DNA of 41,516 bases from a virus. The translations under genes and the position numbers were made by a program. Each line of letters starts with the position of its first letter. Positions within the stretch are counted from its first letter, which is position 1. The DNA lies in the IMG/VR virus record IMGVR_UViG_3300021513_000010, positions 1 through 41,516 of that record. The stretch is one strand, 5' to 3'. Of the stretch, positions 841 through 41,516 are shown in pieces. A model generated the notes under the pieces. It worked only from the letters and a program-made list of their open reading frames with translations. It was not told where the DNA came from and made no database searches.

Positions 841-931
841 CCGTTGTTCGCTCTGCTCGTGTGCAGCCCGCAGATGTCGTACAGGTAGCCGTCGGCAGCC
901 GCCGTTGCACGCTTTGCACCCACCCATCCCG

Positions 932-1059
932 GTGGAGGGTTGCGCATAGGTTGCTTGCTTGCTCGCTTGCTTGCCTGCTCGCCGCCATTGCCAGCCAGCC
1001 AGCCGTCCGTCGTTTGCAGTCCTTCGCTGTCTGTGCGTGGTGTGTGCGCAACCCTCCAC
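932..1059. repeat. 15-bp inverted repeat, arms 932-946 and 1045-1059
   Basis: The left arm GTGGAGGGTTGCGCA is perfectly complementary to the right arm TGCGCAACCCTCCAC. The 98-base spacer contains CTTG repeats and AGCC repeats. The same arms recur at 40568-40580 and 41004-41016, but with a 423-base spacer of other content. Confidence 0.85.
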
Positions 1060-1114
1060 GAACATACCAAAGACAGGGGCCCACCACCCGCCCTCAGGCG
1101 CTGCACGCCCGCAT

Positions 1115-1254
1115 GTGCCGGCGGTCATATAATCTGACATTATGATGACACGCTTCGAAGCGTGTCATATAATGAAGATTATAACGCTTAGCAGGCACGC
1201 ACGTAATTTTGATTGTCAGGTATAAGACGTGCCTGCACGCTTGACCGCCGGCAC
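1115..1254. repeat. Nested inverted repeats around a perfect 24-bp palindrome
   Basis: The outer arms are 1115-1127 (GTGCCGGCGGTCA) and 1242-1254. An inner pair is 1191-1199 (GCAGGCACG) and 1228-1236. Between them lies a perfect 24-bp palindrome at 1145-1168 with core GACACGCTTCGAAGCGTGTC. The right-end copy near 41065-41212 keeps this arrangement, with one changed base at the palindrome centre. Confidence 0.85.
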
Positions 1255-1330
1255 GATGCAAGGGGGGCATGCTGGCTGTCTTGCGGTTCTTGCCGGTTGG
1301 TTAGCCAGCCAGCCAGCAGCCCCCCGACAT
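1255..1330. repeat. ATGCAAGGGGGGC...GCCCCCCGACAT hairpin element, copy 1
   Basis: The element starts with ATGCAAGGGGGGC and ends with GCAGCCCCCCGACAT. The inner flanks TGCTGGCTG and CAGCCAGCCAGCAG also pair. Flanks and G/C stem recur at 2814-2860, 3159-3250 and 41213-41287 while the interior varies in length and sequence. Confidence 0.8.
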
Positions 1331-1584
1331 GGTGTAAAGGGTCTGCCGCCATTACTGCTACCATTAGCAGCCTTCCCGCAACGAGCGTGGGCGCGAGGAC
1401 ATCGCCATGAATTGCGTGCCACGCACATGCAATTCATGCCTCTGCCTCAATCGTCCATCGCGCCCTAAATAGTTGCGTCCAGGCTGCCCAATGCCAACAC
1501 CAATCCAAACACTTAGGTCACATCTGCATCCTGGTTCTCTGTTTCTGTTTCTCTTTCTTCTTTTTCCTCCTCCACCACCCCCCT

Positions 1585-2032
1585 GACTTCGCAAGCGAAG
1601 TCAATCCACCCACACCTTTCGATTTGCGGCGTTCCGCAAAGTTATAAACCCCTCGGTAAGCTCTGCAGTCAAGAACCTTTCCGAGAAAGGTTCTGACAGA
1701 CTCCAAAGCGTAATGGAAAACCATTGCAGCCCTCCCGCGGCTCGTTCGGGTGCGGTTGTCTTCCACACGCTTTCCAGGCAGAAGCGTGTGTCAGCAACTT
1801 CCCGCACCCTCTTCTGCCGCGTCCGGGCTGCTTAACGCCTCCATTACATCAAATTCTTCTTTTCTTTCTTTGCGCCGGCGCGTAGCGCCGGCTGATGGCT
1901 GTGATGCGCGCATCTGTCGAGATGCGCTTAGATACGCTTTTTCCTTTTCTTTGAGAAAGAAAAGAAAAAGCTCAGCAAAAAGAAAAGAAACGTGCTGCTC
2001 GCTCGTTCGTCTGCTCACTCGCTCGCAGCACG
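1585..2032. repeat. Train of short-loop hairpins
   Basis: Successive perfect or near-perfect stems with different sequences: 1585-1592/1595-1602, 1623-1629/1634-1640, 1672-1680/1686-1694, 1764-1772/1782-1790, 1874-1881/1885-1892, 1908-1915/1920-1927, 1936-1952/1956-1971 (one bulge) and 1991-1998/2025-2032. Loops are mostly 2-9 bases. Such density without coding capacity is compatible with a structured RNA or with a DNA site read as single strands. Confidence 0.75.
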
Positions 2033-2233
2033 GTCATGTAGGGTCTACGCCTTCTGGCGTCGTAACACGAGCCGCAAAGTTCATACGAACCACACAGTTT
2101 TGAAGCCGTAGCAGGAATCGCATAGCGTAGCAGCAACCGCATAGCGCCCTGTTCGGTAGGTAACAGGAAACGCATATTCCAGCCGCTCCGGCTTTCTTGT
2201 CTTGTGCGCACGTGCTCATTCTTTCTCCGCTCC

Positions 2234-2304
2234 GGTTAAAGCGTTTGAAGTTTTGCTCGCCGAAGCGAGCAAAACCAAGCCCTTCGGGTTCAAACGCCTA
2301 AACC
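2234..2304. repeat. Branched palindrome, copy 1
   Basis: The outer arms GGTTAAAGCGTTTGAA and TTCAAACGCCTAAACC enclose two hairpins: GTTTTGCTCG/CGAGCAAAAC, and GCCC-TTC-GGG. The fold is a three-way junction. One arm lacks a T compared with copies 2-4. Confidence 0.85.
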
Positions 2305-2340
2305 TCCCCGTAGCCTTCCGTTGCCATCTTTTCGCTTTCC

Positions 2341-2415
2341 GGGTTTAAAGCATTTGAAGTTTTGCTCGGCATAGCGAGCAAAACCAAGCCCTTCGGGTTC
2401 AAATGCCTTAAACCC
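2341..2415. repeat. Branched palindrome, copy 2
   Basis: The outer stem GGGTTTAA/TTAAACCC is followed, after one mismatch, by GCATTTGAA/TTCAAATGC. The A/T pair replaces the G/C pair of copies 1 and 3, a compensatory change. The inner hairpin is GTTTTGCTCG/CGAGCAAAAC with a different loop, and the GCCCTTCGGG hairpin is unchanged. Confidence 0.88.
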
Positions 2416-2466
2416 GATCCGTTATCGTCCTTGCCTATTCGCACGTGCGCACATCCACTTCGCCCC

Positions 2467-2533
2467 GGTTTAAAGCGTTTGAAGTTTTACGCAAGCGTAA
2501 AACCAAGCCCTTCGGGTTCAAACGCCTTAAACC
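2467..2533. repeat. Branched palindrome, copy 3
   Basis: The outer stem is GGTTTAA/TTAAACC plus GCGTTTGAA/TTCAAACGC. The inner hairpin is GTTTTACGC/GCGTAAAAC, so both strands of the stem differ from copies 1 and 2 but still pair. The GCCCTTCGGG hairpin is unchanged. Confidence 0.88.
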
Positions 2534-2573
2534 TCTTCCGTCGCCTTTTCACCGTTGACCTCTCGCCCGTTGC

Positions 2574-2641
2574 GGGTTTAAAGCATTTGAAGTTTCGCTT
2601 TACGCGAAACCAAGCCCTTCGGGTTCAAATGCCTTAAACCC
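2574..2641. repeat. Branched palindrome, copy 4
   Basis: The outer stem is GGGTTTAA/TTAAACCC plus GCATTTGAA/TTCAAATGC. The inner hairpin is GTTTCGC/GCGAAAC, a fourth version that still pairs. The GCCCTTCGGG hairpin is unchanged. Confidence 0.88.
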
Positions 2642-2813
2642 GACTCTGATTGCTCCCGTTGCGTTCCAAGAAAGCCTCCGCGGGCTGGAACACACATTTC
2701 CCGTTACCTCCACGCCAGTGCGCCACACGGTCATGCCGCTACGCCACACAATTCCCGCTACTTCGTTCAAAACCGCATAGTTCGTAAGACCCTCACAACT
2801 CGTGTTACGGTCG

Positions 2814-2860
2814 CATGCAAGAGGGGCTGCTGGTCCAGCCAGCCAGCAGCCCCTCGACAT
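2814..2860. repeat. CATGCAAGAGGGGCTG...CAGCCCCTCGACAT hairpin element, copy 2
   Basis: This is the short version of the element at 1255-1330. The stem AGGGGCTGCTGG pairs with CCAGCAGCCCCT. The stem carries compensatory changes (GAGGGG with CCCCTC instead of GGGGGG with CCCCCC), while the outer flanks CATGCAA and CGACAT are kept. Confidence 0.82.
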
Positions 2861-2928
2861 TCACCCACCCGCCCTCGTTGTCTACCCACTCGCCATGCGT
2901 GCGTAACGGTAGACCCGGAGCCGCCCGA

Positions 2929-2980
2929 CGAAGGTTTTAATATTTACGAGCCTCGCGGCTCGCGCAATTTAAAACCTTCG
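2929..2980. repeat. Palindrome with inner hairpin
   Basis: The arms CGAAGGTTTTAA (2929-2940) and TTAAAACCTTCG (2969-2980) pair perfectly. Inside is CGAGCC-TCGC-GGCTCG (2947-2962). A small CCTGCTTCGCAGG hairpin follows directly. Confidence 0.8.
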
Positions 2981-2995
2981 CCTGCTTCGCAGGTT

Positions 2996-3122
2996 GCGGA
3001 ATGGCGGGTCATACGAAAGGCAAAATAATTGCAAGCCTCACGGCTTGTGCATTTTATTGCCTTTCGCCGTTCCGGTTCAGCCCTCCGCTACGCGGACGGC
3101 TGACTCTGACCCGCCATTCCGC
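2996..3122. repeat. 127-base branched palindrome with perfect 16-bp outer stem
   Basis: The outer arms GCGGAATGGCGGGTCA (2996-3011) and its exact complement (3107-3122) enclose two sub-hairpins. The first is CGAAAGGCAA (3014-3023) with TTGCCTTTCG (3057-3066), capped by CAAGCC/GGCTTG. The second is CAGCC/GGCTG plus TCCGC/GCGGA (3078-3102). It is a second three-way junction class, larger than the 2234-2641 family. Confidence 0.85.
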
Positions 3123-3158
3123 AATCGTGCAGCTCCGGCTATGTCCCGTTCCGCACGC

Positions 3159-3250
3159 CATGCAAGGGGGGCTGCCATCGAACCTCAAGTTGCCAACCTT
3201 TGCCAGCCCGCCGCGCCCGCCGCTGCCATTTGCCGGCAGCCCCCCGACAT
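3159..3250. repeat. CATGCAAGGGGGGCTGCC...GGCAGCCCCCCGACAT hairpin element, copy 3
   Basis: The flanks CATGCAA and CGACAT and the GGGGGGCTGCC stem match the copies at 1255 and 2814, but the 60-base interior (TTGCCAACCTTTGCCAGCCC and following) is unrelated to theirs. Confidence 0.8.
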
Positions 3251-3360
3251 TATTCAGCTATAAGCTATCAGGCAATTCATTCTCACTCAACGCTCCAATT
3301 TCAAATCAAAAGCAGAATAGAGAAGATAAGAAAAGATAAGATAAGATTAAGATAGGAGGG

Positions 3361-3528
3361 ATGAGAGGGGAGATGAGAGTGAAGCTGAAGATGAAGGTGC
3401 GTATAAAGCGCTGGTGGAAGCTATCAAAGACCGCACACCTGTTGCGGAAATACGGAGTGATAGAACTGCTGGAGATACTCCTCTTCGGGCTAATCGTAAT
3501 CCTCTTAGCGAGGATATTTGGGTGTTAA
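3361..3528 (+). CDS. Small membrane protein, 55 aa
   Basis: ATG at 3361 follows TAGGAGGG; an alternative start at 3373 follows GAGGGGAG. The first 30 residues are strongly basic (MRGEMRVKLKMKVRIKRWWK) and residues 37-53 form one hydrophobic segment (ELLEILLFGLIVILLARIF), so a single-pass membrane peptide with a basic, probably cytoplasmic, head is expected. It is the first gene after the palindrome region and opens the early-type operon. The stop is directly followed by the tRNA-like element. Its role is unknown. Confidence 0.6.
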   Translation: MRGEMRVKLKMKVRIKRWWKLSKTAHLLRKYGVIELLEILLFGLIVILLARIFGC

Positions 3529-6480: not shown

Positions 6481-7355
6481 CCCTATTCTTCCCTCCTTCC
6501 GTCTTCTCTCCCTCTCTCCCGCTTCTTCTTTTTTTTTTGAACTCCCAATTCCCAATCCCAATTCAAGTCCCACCGCCCACCTCCCAGCCTGTTCTGCCCG
6601 CCCGCACTTTTGCCGTTCTTATCTCCCGTTGCCGAAGGCACGCAGCGGCATCGTCTCCATTTCGAGGGCGAATTCCCCCCCCTGAAACGCCCCCCCTCTC
6701 CGCTTCCATAGCTATGAAAGGTTGCGCCAGTCGGCTGAACTGTGCTGCGTGCCTTTCCGTGGAACATCAGAGGGGGGGAATTCGCTTGTGCCCCATTCTT
6801 CGTTGCCGCCGTAGCTCTTGCCGCCCGCAGCTCTCTTCGCTGCTTATCTCTACCGCAGCTCTCAGCTCTTACTATGCCTACCGTTGCTCGTAGCCGCCGT
6901 TGATACTGCTGCTCGTCCTCACCGCTGCTCCAGGACTTCACCATAGCCCTTGTCTAACCTCAGCTCTTGTCCTCCTATGCTTAAGACTGCTTCTTGTCCG
7001 AACCTTAGCTCTTGTCTCCTATGCTTACCGTTGCCTCTTTGCTTATCCTTTGCTGCTGGCATTCACCATATCAAATTCAATTCACCATATCAGAATCACA
7101 AGTCTATCCGCCCCACTTCTCTACTAACTCATGTCATTTTCAGCCGCTATCGAAATTTCGCTCGCCCTCAGGTATAAAACCATTAACCCACATCTTTCAT
7201 TCGCACCAGCGTGATATTTCAGCATGGTCTTTTCCATACCACTCTCTTCTGACATATCCAGCCATCGGACATGTTCATATTCCCGGTTTTTTGTTTTCCC
7301 ACCGTCAGCCTTATCATACCATATCTTCTATCATCATAGCGGAGGTGATATCAAT
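6481..7355. other. Non-coding region with pyrimidine tracts and direct repeats
   Basis: The + strand is almost pure C/T at 6484-6537, ending in nine T, a plausible archaeal terminator for the upstream operon. The interleaved repeat (6635-6785) follows. At 6955-7030 the phrases TAGCTCTTGTC and TCCTATGCTTA repeat, and at 7064-7095 ATTCACCATATCA repeats. No ORF with a ribosome binding site lies here until GGAGGTG at 7341. Confidence 0.65.
6635..6785. repeat. Interleaved inverted-repeat (pseudoknot-like) element, copy 1
   Basis: Arm A AAGGCACGCAGC (6635-6646) pairs with A' (6744-6755). Arm B GCGAATTCCCCCCC (from 6668) pairs with B' GGGGGGGAATTCGC (ending 6785), extended by CTGA/TCAG across a small mismatch. 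The order is A-B-A'-B', so the two stems cross, as in a pseudoknot. A related element with the same order lies at 40699-40851. Confidence 0.8.
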
Positions 7356-21733: not shown

Positions 21734-21904
21734 TCAATCGCCGGCGCGCGCCCGTCCATAAGATGTACTACACTCCAATGGTTATAACCCACAGCCGCCC
21801 GGACTCTGAATTGAATCTCATACGCACAGCCTCACTCATTTCACGCCGCCACGCTCGTTTATCCATGGTCAGATATTTCACACGCGCTCACACATACGCC
21901 CACA

Positions 21905-22254
21905 TTTTTTCGCGCGCCCCTCGTTCTTCTCTGTCTTCTCATTCCACAGCACCCACTCTCACTCTCACTCTCACAGCTTCCAAACCGCAGCGTCCATTCG
22001 CACGCCACTCTCTGTGCATTTGTATGCACACACTCAGCCCGATCAGATTTTTGCGCGCGCCCTCGCACGTCCATCATTTTTTCCGGCGCGCGCCCAGACT
22101 CCTCTCTCTTTTTTTTCACGCGCGCGCGCTCATACGCCCATCAGATTTTTTCGCGCGCCCTCGTCCAGCTGAAATTTTTTGCCGCGCGCGCCCCCGTGCA
22201 AAAATTTTCGCGCCCCCCCTTTTCCCTGTGGCGATTTTTTTTTCGGCGCGCCCC
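21905..22254 (+). repeat. Eight-copy T-tract plus CGCGCGCC array
   Basis: The units read like TTTTTTCGCGCGCCC and vary in T length and in the GC block. Spacing is 25-65 bases after the first unit. Archaeal RNA polymerase terminates at oligo-T on the coding strand, so the array could be a stacked terminator between the repair cassette and the capsid operon. Binding sites for a protein are an alternative. Confidence 0.65.
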
Positions 22255-22259
22255 TCGCC

Positions 22260-22270
22260 TCTATATATTT
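22260..22270 (+). promoter_or_regulatory. TATA-box-like site before the HTH gene
   Basis: CTATATATTTT follows the T/GC array and is about 95 bases before ATG 22359. It is the only TATA-like site close to that start, giving a leader of about 65 bases if used. Confidence 0.45.
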
Positions 22271-22358
22271 TGTTTACTCCCCCCGGGTTCTCGCCCCTCT
22301 CCAGCCCTCTTTCGTGCTTCCGAACCCACCCTCACCTCCTTAGGATAGAACATAAAAA

Positions 22359-29037: not shown

Positions 29038-29055
29038 TGTAGGAGATGATTGACT

Positions 29056-30288
29056 ATGCCTATCATCAACTGCACTGAACATAAGCTGCTTTTCCAATAT
29101 TCGATCGATGAGCTCGCTTCACTTTTCGATACTGCTGATCCATCTGTTCTCGCAAGTTACGTTAACCAAGGTGACTATGTTGGGCTCACTGTTAGCGCAC
29201 TTGCAGAGATATTTGACTCTTCCTCCTTTTCTGCGGCTTCAGCCGCAGCTACGCTCGATGATAATAACCTCACTGCTACCAGAGCTGCTACGATACTCGA
29301 TGATGATAATCTCTCAGTTGATAGAGCAGCTTCGATCTTCGATGAAGACAATCTCACAGCCGCGAAAGCTGCCTCGATCATTAGCGATTCTGCGATCTCC
29401 GCTTCTAAAGTCCATTCCATCTTAGAAAACTCAAATCTATCAGGTACGAAATGCCAAGCTATTACTGATCATCCGAATCGCACTCGTTTCTTCCATTTCT
29501 GGATCACCAATGGTGTTGGCGACCTCAGCACCGCACGGCAAGGGCTCGCAGGCTGCGGCTCGCAATCCGCTGGGCTTGCATTTGGTGGTGATACCGGTAG
29601 CCTCTCAGCCTTAACTGAGGAATATGACGGCTCTTCTTGGTCTTCTGGCGGTAATCTCAACACCGCTCGTAAGAAGCTTGCGGGTTGTGGCTCGCAAACC
29701 GCTGGGCTATCCTTCGGTGGCAATGATGGCTCTGTATCTAATGTCACTGAAGAGTATGATGGCTCTTCTTGGTCTTCCGGTGGAAGCCTTAACACTGCAC
29801 GTGAATTACTCGCAGGTTGCGGCACTCAATCCGCCGGGCTTTCTTTCGGTGGCTATGCCAGCTCTTGGTTAGCCACAACTGAGGAATATGATGGCTCTTC
29901 TTGGTCTTCTGGCGGTAATCTCAATTCCGCTCGGTTCGGACTTGCAGGTTGCGGCTCGCAATCCGCTGGCTTGTCCTTCGGCGGCTATGATGGCAACTTC
30001 TCTTCTGTTACCGAAGAGTATGATGGCTCAGCGTGGTCTACTGCCGGCAGCCTCAATTCAGGTCGCATGGGACTCGCCGGTTGTGGCACTCAATCCGCCG
30101 GGCTATCTTCCGGCGGCTATGATGGCAGCCCAATGGCCACCACAGAGGAATATGATGGCTCTTCTTGGTCTTCTGGCGGAAGCCTCAATACCGCTCGATA
30201 TGCTCATGGTGGATGTGGTTCACAATCTGCCGGGCTCGCATTTGGTGGATCCGGCAGCAATCTGGCCTCTTCTGAAGAATACATCTAA
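29056..30288 (+). CDS. Kelch-like repeat receptor-binding protein, 410 aa
   Basis: ATG 29056 follows TAGGAGATG. Residues 55-130 hold about five 19-residue repeats of the type AASIFDEDNLTAAKA. Residues 155-410 hold six Kelch-like repeats of about 43 residues: LNTAR..LAGCGSQSAGLSFGG...TEEYDGSSWSSGG. Six blades would form a beta-propeller. Short near-identical DNA repeats could allow blade gain or loss. It is probably the distal adhesin together with the beta-helix protein. Confidence 0.75.
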   Translation: MPIINCTEHKLLFQYSIDELASLFDTADPSVLASYVNQGDYVGLTVSALAEIFDSSSFSAASAAATLDDNNLTATRAATILDDDNLSVDRAASIFDEDNLTAAKAASIISDSAISASKVHSILENSNLSGTKCQAITDHPNRTRFFHFWITNGVGDLSTARQGLAGCGSQSAGLAFGGDTGSLSALTEEYDGSSWSSGGNLNTARKKLAGCGSQTAGLSFGGNDGSVSNVTEEYDGSSWSSGGSLNTARELLAGCGTQSAGLSFGGYASSWLATTEEYDGSSWSSGGNLNSARFGLAGCGSQSAGLSFGGYDGNFSSVTEEYDGSAWSTAGSLNSGRMGLAGCGTQSAGLSSGGYDGSPMATTEEYDGSSWSSGGSLNTARYAHGGCGSQSAGLAFGGSGSNLASSEEYI

Positions 30289-39533: not shown

Positions 39534-39764
39534 ATGAGTCTTGACGTCACCTTCGGGGTGTGGGTGAAAGAGCTCGAAGCTGAGGTCACGTTCTTCGATG
39601 TGCACCTACCAGAGGACAAGCTATTTATCAATGACGTGCTCACCGCCGTCGCTCAGACGCTCATTCTGAAGGTAGATTTTGATATCCAAAACGATTCTGC
39701 GGGTTGGGCTGTGAAATCAGTCAAACGTGATGGTAGAGACTGCCAACTGGAGGTTTCTATTTAA
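39534..39764 (+). CDS. Hypothetical protein, 76 aa (right copy)
   Basis: ATG 39534 follows GGGAGGTGAAAAAG; a GTG at 39525 is inside that site. The beta-rich product (SLDVTFGVWVKELEAEVTFF, LILKVDFDIQNDSAGWAVKS) is the complete version of the left-end fragment. No family is recognised. Confidence 0.65.
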   Translation: MSLDVTFGVWVKELEAEVTFFDVHLPEDKLFINDVLTAVAQTLILKVDFDIQNDSAGWAVKSVKRDGRDCQLEVSI

Positions 39765-39773
39765 CTGAAAAAA

Positions 39774-39783
39774 TCTATTTATG
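39774..39783 (+). promoter_or_regulatory. TATA-box-like site before the right TerS-like gene
   Basis: TCTATTTATG is 45 bases before ATG 39823, and CAGGAG at 39809-39814 is a usable ribosome binding site. The left copy has a weaker sequence at this place. Confidence 0.4.
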
Positions 39784-39822
39784 ACCACGTAGGTACTAAA
39801 ACCTCTCACAGGAGTTTTTCAC

Positions 39823-40449
39823 ATGTCGCACCCGGTAGAAGACCCGGATATAGCAGCGGCTTTTGAGGCGTATGTAGCCATGGGCACGATCCGAAGCGTC
39901 CGCCGCTTGTGGAAGAATTGGGATGCGTTGGTGCATACAGGTCGCCCCCGTCCAACCTACCAAGCAGTATGCAAGTGGGCGAAGCGGTACAATTGGCGTG
40001 AGCGTGCCGCCGAGCGCGACCGCAAGTTTTCGAAGAAGCTCGCCGAGAAAAACGACGCCATGAGGCTGCACACTGCGGAGCACATCTTGCAACTCCTGTA
40101 TGCCCGTATCCGCACGGTCTTCGATGAGGACGGTAACACCATCCTACCGATCCAGAACTACCAAGACCTCAACGACACGATCAGGTTGGCGCTCCAGATA
40201 ATCGGCGTAACGAACCAACCCGCTGCTGCACGTGGCCGCCAGCCGAGCCACCAGACGAACATCAAGATAATCAAGGTAGTTGATGGCATGTCGGAGCAAT
40301 CGCAATCAAACGCAGTTGACACCGAAGCCCAGGAGGTTGTGGACACGGACACAGACATAGATGAAGCCATCGACGCCAAGGCTGAGGCTGAGGCGGAACT
40401 CAACTTAAAACCCGAGCCAAGCCCAGAGCCAGAGCAAGAGCAAGAGTAA
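39823..40449 (+). CDS. Putative terminase small subunit-like HTH protein (right copy)
   Basis: A 208-residue paralogue of 199-840. The HTH part (AYVAMGTIRSVRRLWKNW ... WAKRYNWRERAAERDR) and the helical middle (TAEHILQLLYARIRTVFDED) are nearly identical. The tail is different but equally acidic and repetitive (AEAEAELNLKPEPSPEPEQE). The many silent or conservative changes between copies mean both have been under selection for protein function. Confidence 0.58.
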   Translation: MSHPVEDPDIAAAFEAYVAMGTIRSVRRLWKNWDALVHTGRPRPTYQAVCKWAKRYNWRERAAERDRKFSKKLAEKNDAMRLHTAEHILQLLYARIRTVFDEDGNTILPIQNYQDLNDTIRLALQIIGVTNQPAAARGRQPSHQTNIKIIKVVDGMSEQSQSNAVDTEAQEVVDTDTDIDEAIDAKAEAEAELNLKPEPSPEPEQEQE

Positions 40450-40567
40450 GAGCCAGAGCAAGAGCTGCAAGAGTCCGCACCTTAGCGCCGTCTAAGTAAG
40501 CGGGCCCGCCCTAACCATTGCCGCTGCGATGCCGTAGCCGTTGCACGCTTCGCACCCACCCATCCCG

Positions 40568-41016
40568 GTGGAGGGTTGCGTGCACGTGCACAGTCAGCTT
40601 CAGCTCGCTCACTCGCTCACTCGCTCGGCTGCTATTTGCGTACTCGTCCGTCACCTGCCCACCGTTATCGTTCCATAGCTTTCACACCATCCCCGCGGAA
40701 GGCACGCAGCGCCCTTGCCGCCATTTCGAGGGCGAACGCCCCCCCTCTGAAACTCCCCCCCACTCAGCTCCCACCGCTATGAAATTCAAGCGCCATTCGG
40801 CTGATTTGTGCTGCGTGCCACCTCCGTAGACGTCAGAGGGGGGGCATTCGCAAGCGCCCGTCTGCCGTCCGTCGCATTTTCAGCTCTGCCGTCCGCAGCC
40901 TTTTCCATGTTGCCCCACCTTCGCCTCCCACAGCACCCGTTTGCCACTCTGCCCGTGCGCGCTCGCTTCGACCGTTATCGGTTACCATTGTCTTCCGCTA
41001 CTGCGCAACCCTCCAC
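40568..41016. repeat. 13-bp inverted repeat, arms 40568-40580 and 41004-41016
   Basis: The arms GTGGAGGGTTGCG and CGCAACCCTCCAC are the same as at 932-1059, but the spacer is 423 bases. Confidence 0.82.
40699..40851. repeat. Interleaved inverted-repeat (pseudoknot-like) element, copy 2
   Basis: A GGCACGCAGC (40701-40710) pairs with 40810-40819; B (40732-40750) pairs with B' (40833-40851) over 19 positions with one G-T-type mismatch. The order A-B-A'-B' is the same as in copy 1, while loops and several stem positions differ. Confidence 0.8.
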
Positions 41017-41064
41017 GAACATAGCAATGGCAAGGGCCCACCACCCGCCCTCAGGCGCTGCACG

Positions 41065-41212
41065 CCCCGCATGTGCCGGCGGTCATATAATCTGACATTA
41101 TGATGACACGCTTCAAAGCGTGTCATATAATGAAGATTATAACGCTTAGCAGGCACGCACGTCTTTTAGACCGCGGGTATAAGACGTGCCTGCACGCTTG
41201 ACCGCCGGCACT
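41065..41212. repeat. Nested inverted repeats, right copy
   Basis: This is the counterpart of 1115-1254, with core GACACGCTTCAAAGCGTGTC (one mismatch at the centre) and the flanking GCAGGCACG/CGTGCCTGC pair. The segment between the arms of that pair has changed (TTTTAGACCGCGGG instead of AATTTTGATTGTCAG). Confidence 0.78.
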
Positions 41213-41287
41213 ATGCAAGGGGGGCATGCTGGCTGTCTCGCAGTTCTTGCCGGTTGGTTAGCCAGCCAGCCAGCAGCCCCCCGACAT
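41213..41287. repeat. ATGCAAGGGGGGC...GCCCCCCGACAT hairpin element, copy 4
   Basis: Almost identical to copy 1 at 1255-1330, as part of the end duplication. Confidence 0.8.
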
Positions 41288-41516
41288 GGTGTAAAGGGTC
41301 TGCCGCCATTACTGCTACCATTAGCAGCCTTCTATCCTCGCAACGAGCGTGGGCGCGAGGACATCGCCATGAATTGCGTGCCACGCACGTGCAATTCATG
41401 CCTCTGCCTCAATCGTCCATCGCGCCCTAAATAGTTGCGTCCAGGCTGCCCAATGCCAACACCAATCCAAACACTTAGGTCACATCTGCATCCTGGTTCT
41501 CTGTTTCTGTTTCTCT

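Follow-up and report, generated by a model that had tools for sequence, protein, structure and literature searches.

A palindrome-dense noncoding locus with tandem three-way-junction units in a tailed virus: a candidate large structured RNA

Introduction

Few giant structured noncoding RNAs are known. GOLLD and ROOL, which are found in phages and prophages and have unknown functions, form multi-copy RNA cages, with many GOLLD members exceeding 800 nt (PMC12286853), and are often located near tRNA islands. The noncoding locus described here, which spans ~2.2 kb of a tailed virus genome, would by analogy work most like GOLLD and ROOL: it is large, elaborately folded, virus-borne, devoid of a protein product and rich in hairpins, while its RNA status is predicted. 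Since it has no Rfam match, does not lie beside tRNA genes (as judged by ARAGORN) and is of greater length, the locus was not filed as a member of either family. Unlike GOLLD and ROOL, it furthermore contains three-way-junction units that recur in varying number and is probably placed on the minus strand beside a small-terminase gene. OLE and other ornate large noncoding RNAs resemble it as long folded RNAs with extensive conserved pairing, but no covariance-model match to them was obtained.

The window analysed here is the whole of virus record IMGVR_UViG_3300021513_000010 (41,516 bases). No Rfam family reached its gathering score in this window, a permissive Rfam search of positions 850-3370 returned chance matches only (best E 0.18, a miRNA family), and no match was obtained by BLAST against phage and plasmid collections, in agreement with the original prediction, which knew of no named family like this one. 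The accessible text of a paper on ANME-1 viruses describes no noncoding region of such a kind (PMC9894754).

Results and discussion

Genome context of the locus

The virus encodes a large terminase, a portal, an HK97-type capsid protein, a PCNA-like clamp, a DNA ligase and a small terminase, in addition to a PD-(D/E)XK (Cas4-like) nuclease and a Holliday-junction resolvase-like protein. It represents a tailed virus from metagenomes, the near relatives of which derive from Guaymas deep-sea sediment. The ends of the record were shown to be diverged direct copies of one locus (4-730 versus 39624-40357, 82.7% DNA identity), with a second overlap identified by blastn self-match (1045-1554 versus 41002-41516, 95.5% identity). 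The simplest reading of such copies is a probable circular or terminally redundant genome of ~39.6 kb, with assembly ends derived from two strains.

The noncoding region is flanked by a small-terminase-like gene on the plus strand (199-840), which is homologous to 39823-40449 (82.7% DNA identity), the product of the latter matching the terminase small subunit family (E 4e-13). A search with the small terminase as query found no relatives. MAG contigs with the labels Thorarchaeota (94% amino acid identity) and Omnitrophota (71%) are among the terminase relatives; both carry Guaymas scaffold names and may be misbinned. The PCNA-like clamp hints at an archaeal host. Host searches based on CRISPR spacers and shared DNA returned only a TerL-bearing MAG contig, one 31-nt match outside any repeat array and weak matches of 34-50 nt, three of which lie over a CTAT microsatellite.

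Four tandem units fold as three-way junctions

The array (2234-2642) consists of four units of 67-77 nt, each of which folds at minimum free energy (-29 to -41 kcal/mol) as a three-way junction whose outer stem carries both a variable and a CCC/GGG hairpin. The paired parts extend over 2234-2304, 2340-2416, 2467-2533 and 2573-2642, with starts ~107-125 nt apart and arms reading GTTTAAAGC...GCCTTAAAC. When assigned to the minus strand, unit 1 (2230-2308; model E 1.4e-20) carries an inner hairpin closed by C(UUCG)G, unit 2 (2339-2417; E 1.3e-23) an outer stem of 18-19 bp with one G.U pair, unit 3 (2464-2536; E 2.2e-22) an inner G(CUUG)C loop and unit 4 (2572-2643; E 1.2e-22) an inner GUAAA loop. 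A covariance model built from the four units matched only these four places on both strands of the window, with best E values of 1e-20 to 1e-23.

The folds and model matches bear out the original prediction with regard to the positions and three-way-junction shape of the four units. Likewise as described, G-C alternates with A-T in the outer stem (at column 14), and the inner hairpins differ in sequence yet still pair. Unit 1 is an exception to the outer-stem claim, its stem being imperfect as one T is missing from each arm, which leaves mismatches. The hairpin that had been called constant varies in relatives, where its stem changes from GCCC/GGGT to GTCC/GGAT and its plus-strand loop reads TTC, TCC, TTCC or TTGC. 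The spacers had been called unrelated, which does not hold for those before units 1 and 3, as both contain CGCACGTGC. Together with the alternating GCG/GCA arms, this shared sequence suggests that a two-unit block was duplicated to give four units; relatives have just two. The units singled out by that prediction are thus real, but constitute one module family inside a ~2.2-kb folded noncoding locus.

Several known palindromic elements are similar to the units, in shape only. REP/BIME and attC elements also form small arrays of short palindromes in which the arms are conserved and the inner stems vary, but the present units are branched three-way junctions that are nested in a larger folded region. 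The REP-associated Y1 (IS200-like) transposase, which could act in trans, had no Pfam match among ~30 window proteins; the attC core sites GTTRRRY and RYYYAAC were not seen in the unit arms by eye, and an integron integrase was absent from the scanned proteins. The T-shaped terminal hairpins of the AAV type exhibit the same topology, with one long stem carrying two short hairpins, whereas the units are internal and tandem, and belong to a tailed dsDNA virus with a terminase in which no Rep initiator was found.

Paired base changes among related units

The proposed check, a search with a covariance model built from the four units, recovered two more units at the same place in each of two near-relative viruses (G001 and G002). 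Across the eight units of the three viruses 94.6% of cells pair, and seven of 30 pairs change on both sides (13 cells), which was reached by 0/500 shuffles, while sliding the partners abolished the signal. No pair was observed to change on one side only while still paired; all 13 changed cells represent Watson-Crick to Watson-Crick double changes without a G.U intermediate, and the inner hairpins change as whole blocks. Two non-canonical positions are invariant in 8/8 units, these being A.C at columns 11/70 of the outer stem and G.T at columns 50/61 of the short hairpin.

The original prediction regarded coupled change as indicative of a selected fold. Paired changes beyond those of shuffled sequences are indeed present, but selection does not follow from the eight units alone, because Watson-Crick-only double changes could also arise from arm-to-arm templated copying in a DNA palindrome; the case for selection is carried mainly by whole-region conservation and strand-specific loops. 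Under such copying (template switching), the units could be neutral or selfish palindromic repeats, spread by duplication and without a selected function, for which the double changes without any single-sided change, the whole-block change of inner hairpins, the difference in copy number between close viruses and the duplicated appearance of the two-unit block would all speak. We consider this improbable: copying should erase the mismatches that are conserved in all eight units, G...A loop ends are retained on one strand, conservation of the surrounding region far exceeds that of third codon positions, and no unit copies were found elsewhere in the virus genome.

The unit covariance model found nothing outside the three closely related viruses, including in 77 more distant terminase relatives and in a virus (L097) with 71% terminase identity, so that covariation depth is low. 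A stricter 19-nt arm pattern matched 11 contigs, among which the model confirmed only the two relatives in the subset checked, and loose pattern scans of viral contigs gave, among the matches listed, mostly chance ones beside known relatives. With regard to a possible dispersed repeat of the host, units were also absent from six MAGs with related terminases and from 195 genomes of the phylum of one MAG contig (L099).

Modules and constraint across the surrounding region

According to the predicted folds, the noncoding region at ~1045-3260 (~2.2 kb) consists almost throughout of branched modules that pair with themselves. The unit array lies between the arms of a long-range inverted repeat (2061-2199 versus 2667-2809; blastn self-match of 72%). 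In the consensus fold, these arms form an imperfect stem of ~107 bp (2061-2195 with 2672-2809; 43+21+37+6 pairs) that includes variable pairs; in the minus sense, 2667-2809 would supply its 5' arm and 2061-2199 its 3' arm.

Module families with conserved ends and variable stems surround the array, all of which are described here for the minus strand. Family C follows the pattern AUGUCG-[variable stem]-CUUGCAU, with copies at 1256-1331, 2815-2860 and 3160-3250, the last being near the proposed 5' end; it also occurs in both near relatives and, by sequence, in L097 at ~225-289 and 295-331. Family D copies are hairpins with GNRA loops (GCGA at 2929-2980 and GUGA at 3014-3066), the first of which displays two compensated pairs in G001, while the second lies with a GC hairpin inside a branched domain (2994-3124) with a perfect 18-bp closing stem. 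Family B includes a branched copy at 1710-1847 (GCAGCCCTCCCGC...GCGTCCGGGCTGC on the plus strand), the helices of which are present in the consensus fold, and a copy at 1355-1490 (GCAGCCTTCCCGCAACGAGC...GTTGCGTCCAGGCTGC on the plus strand) with a counterpart in L097. A further branched palindrome (1117-1254; closing stem CCGGCGGTCA/TGACCGCCGG) is also present in the strain copy at the other end of the record. At ~1367-1379, TCCCGCAACGAGC was observed, which is identical to a conserved stretch of bacterial 16S rRNA; it also occurs in L097, possibly by chance.

At 1937-1990, four viruses carry a pyrimidine-purine hairpin and, after it, a further tract that mirrors it exactly, and on the minus strand these could form a U.A-U/C+.G-C triple helix. 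Its homologue in L097 is 83% identical (E 7e-11), and the pattern was found only in these viruses. This arrangement is reminiscent of the MALAT1/PAN ENE triple helices, with a U-rich tract, a U-A hairpin and a mirror-matched third tract, but the resemblance is one of sequence; the tract can alternatively pair with a purine tract at 1856-1873 (consensus fold) and is not positioned at an RNA 3' end.

The best-conserved block (1613-2060) exhibits, with indels counted, 98.9% identity to G001 and 92.2% to G002, compared with 61-90% at third codon positions in genes for which the frame was followed. Frame-breaking indels in the alignment with relatives indicate that the region is not protein coding. 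Fold energies of the region were 15-46 SD below those of dinucleotide shuffles on both strands, compared with -0.7 and -1.6 for the coding control, these z-scores being rough as they are based on 16 shuffles. Fragments of the region survive in the 71% relative, which also has a comparable palindrome-dense block, whereas none is seen in long TerL relatives at ~50% identity.

The main alternative for such a region is a DNA-level site at a replication origin or packaging start, where cruciforms or hairpins would be extruded (along with purine-tract triplex H-DNA) and where viral proteins, for instance the small terminase, the PCNA-like clamp or the Holliday-junction resolvase, would bind the palindromes. 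The presence of resolvase-like and PCNA-like proteins in this virus agrees with such a site, as do the exclusively Watson-Crick changes in the units, which are expected of DNA palindromes. GNA loops are very stable in single-stranded DNA as well, which also counts in its favour. Proximity to the small-terminase gene, which the region adjoins, was the only sign of membership of the origin or pac classes. Usual origins or pac sites are, however, far smaller than the 2.2-kb constrained region with its loops, no simple GC-skew origin pattern was observed, and an HUH Rep initiator, an integrase and a transposase were absent among the ~30 proteins scanned. As strand-asymmetric wobble and tetraloop signs (see below) moreover favour one strand, a DNA site is judged to be rather unlikely; if it were one, the region would rank as an origin or packaging site of unusual size and ornateness.

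Strand preference

Since a perfect palindrome reads the same on either strand, only imperfections can reveal the strand in use. Among hairpins of at least 5 bp, loops of the stable GNRA, UNCG and CUUG classes were present in 5/25 hairpins in the window on the minus strand (two GNRA, one C(UUCG)G and two G(CUUG)C) and in none on the plus strand. The short unit hairpin loops on the minus strand (GAA, GGA, GGAA and GCAA) always have the form G...A, while the inner unit hairpin loops of 3-5 nt read UUCG, CUUG, GUAAA, GAA, GGA and GGA. For helices predicted on both strands, four constant wobble-type positions are G.U on the minus strand and none on the plus strand; two of these four come from the units, and single-sided variable pairs are split 3:3. 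The A.C mismatch of the units on the plus strand corresponds to G.U on the minus strand, leaving the outer stem unbroken in 7/8 units. A loose count of mismatches under Watson-Crick-only pairing favoured A.C on the plus strand by 5:0, but it draws on few independent helices and was set aside. The energy gain over shuffles was larger on the minus than on the plus strand in three viruses (252 versus 224, 229 versus 181 and 220 versus 178 kcal/mol), although the z-score was not lower on the minus strand in one of the three sequences.

Jointly, these signs favour the minus strand in the predicted folds without amounting to proof, being modest in number and partly non-independent. The plus-strand reading of the original prediction (GCCCTTCGGG) is thus probably not the acting one. 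The corresponding alternative is a structured plus-strand leader or 3' region of the terminase transcript or of a rightward early-gene transcript. The flanking genes are on that strand, the region lies upstream of a ribosome-binding-site-like GATAGGAGGGATGAG at ~3350, and the plus strand also folds well below shuffles; nevertheless, given the absence of stable loop classes and of constant G.U pairs in shared helices, and a unit of a relative (a1, GTCC..GGAT) in which the stem under the plus-strand C(UUCG)G loop is broken, such a leader is considered very improbable.

A proposed minus-strand noncoding RNA

The preferred reading, to which we assign roughly even chances, is that the locus encodes a large (~2.2 kb) structured minus-strand noncoding RNA, in which the units, as recurring three-way-junction modules, would form a multivalent docking array. 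A multi-copy structured RNA was one of several explanations offered by the original prediction and is favoured here as a candidate. The RNA would be encoded in the interval that separates the small-terminase gene from the first rightward genes, with its 5' end at ~3260 and its 3' end at ~1050, which would place it in convergent orientation to the small terminase and in divergent orientation to the rightward genes. The unit array would be located on the end of the ~107-bp imperfect stem, with each unit displaying two short hairpins, most of which carry sheared G...A or other stable loops that may offer a protein, or further copies of the RNA, a series of docking surfaces. Copy number varies between four units in this virus and two in the relatives, probably because a two-unit block was duplicated, and the RNA may act as a multivalent scaffold or decoy during infection. 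No convincing archaeal TATA box was found on the minus strand near 3260, nor any clear promoter. The minus-strand reading is further tempered by the G-richness of that strand, which folds better by composition alone, by the ease with which CUUG loops arise in perfect palindromes and by the lack of G.U intermediates among the unit double changes.

More tentatively, and at somewhat less than even confidence, the locus may represent a new class of giant (~2.2 kb) modular RNA of tailed viruses that infect deep-sea sediment microbes, possibly archaea, characterized by a variable unit number, a candidate triple helix and repeated module families, and longer than GOLLD. If so, the existence of a longer, modular and unrelated RNA would point to more than one origin of such RNAs, and the variable unit number and fast-changing module stems would constitute a natural experiment on giant RNA function.

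Other elements in the window

A tRNA-like reading, prompted by the T-arm resemblance of GGTTCAAAYGCC, was rejected as ARAGORN identified no tRNA in the 41.5-kb window. An intergenic element at 6631-6793 and 40695-40859, the two copies of which are 80% identical, is also present in both near relatives and contains complementary arms that cross (a-b-a'-b'; GGCACGCAGC/GCTGCGTGCC and GCGAATTCCCCCCC/GGGGGGGAATTCGC), representing a candidate pseudoknot in which both sides of one arm pair differ from copy to copy. A 15-bp inverted repeat (GTGGAGGGTTGCGCA...TGCGCAACCCTCCAC) at 932-1059 brackets 98 nt in one strain copy, while in the other, similar arms at 40567-41016 bracket ~420 nt, the pseudoknot-like element among them; judging from this comparison, the site appears to be a variable insertion spot. 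A tandemly repeated coding segment (29523-30248) was observed in a Gly/Ser-rich ORF (29050-30288), which perhaps encodes a tail fibre. Finally, an intergenic stretch at 21763-22350, upstream of the capsid gene cluster, was found to contain repeated CGCGCGC...ATTTTTT motifs.
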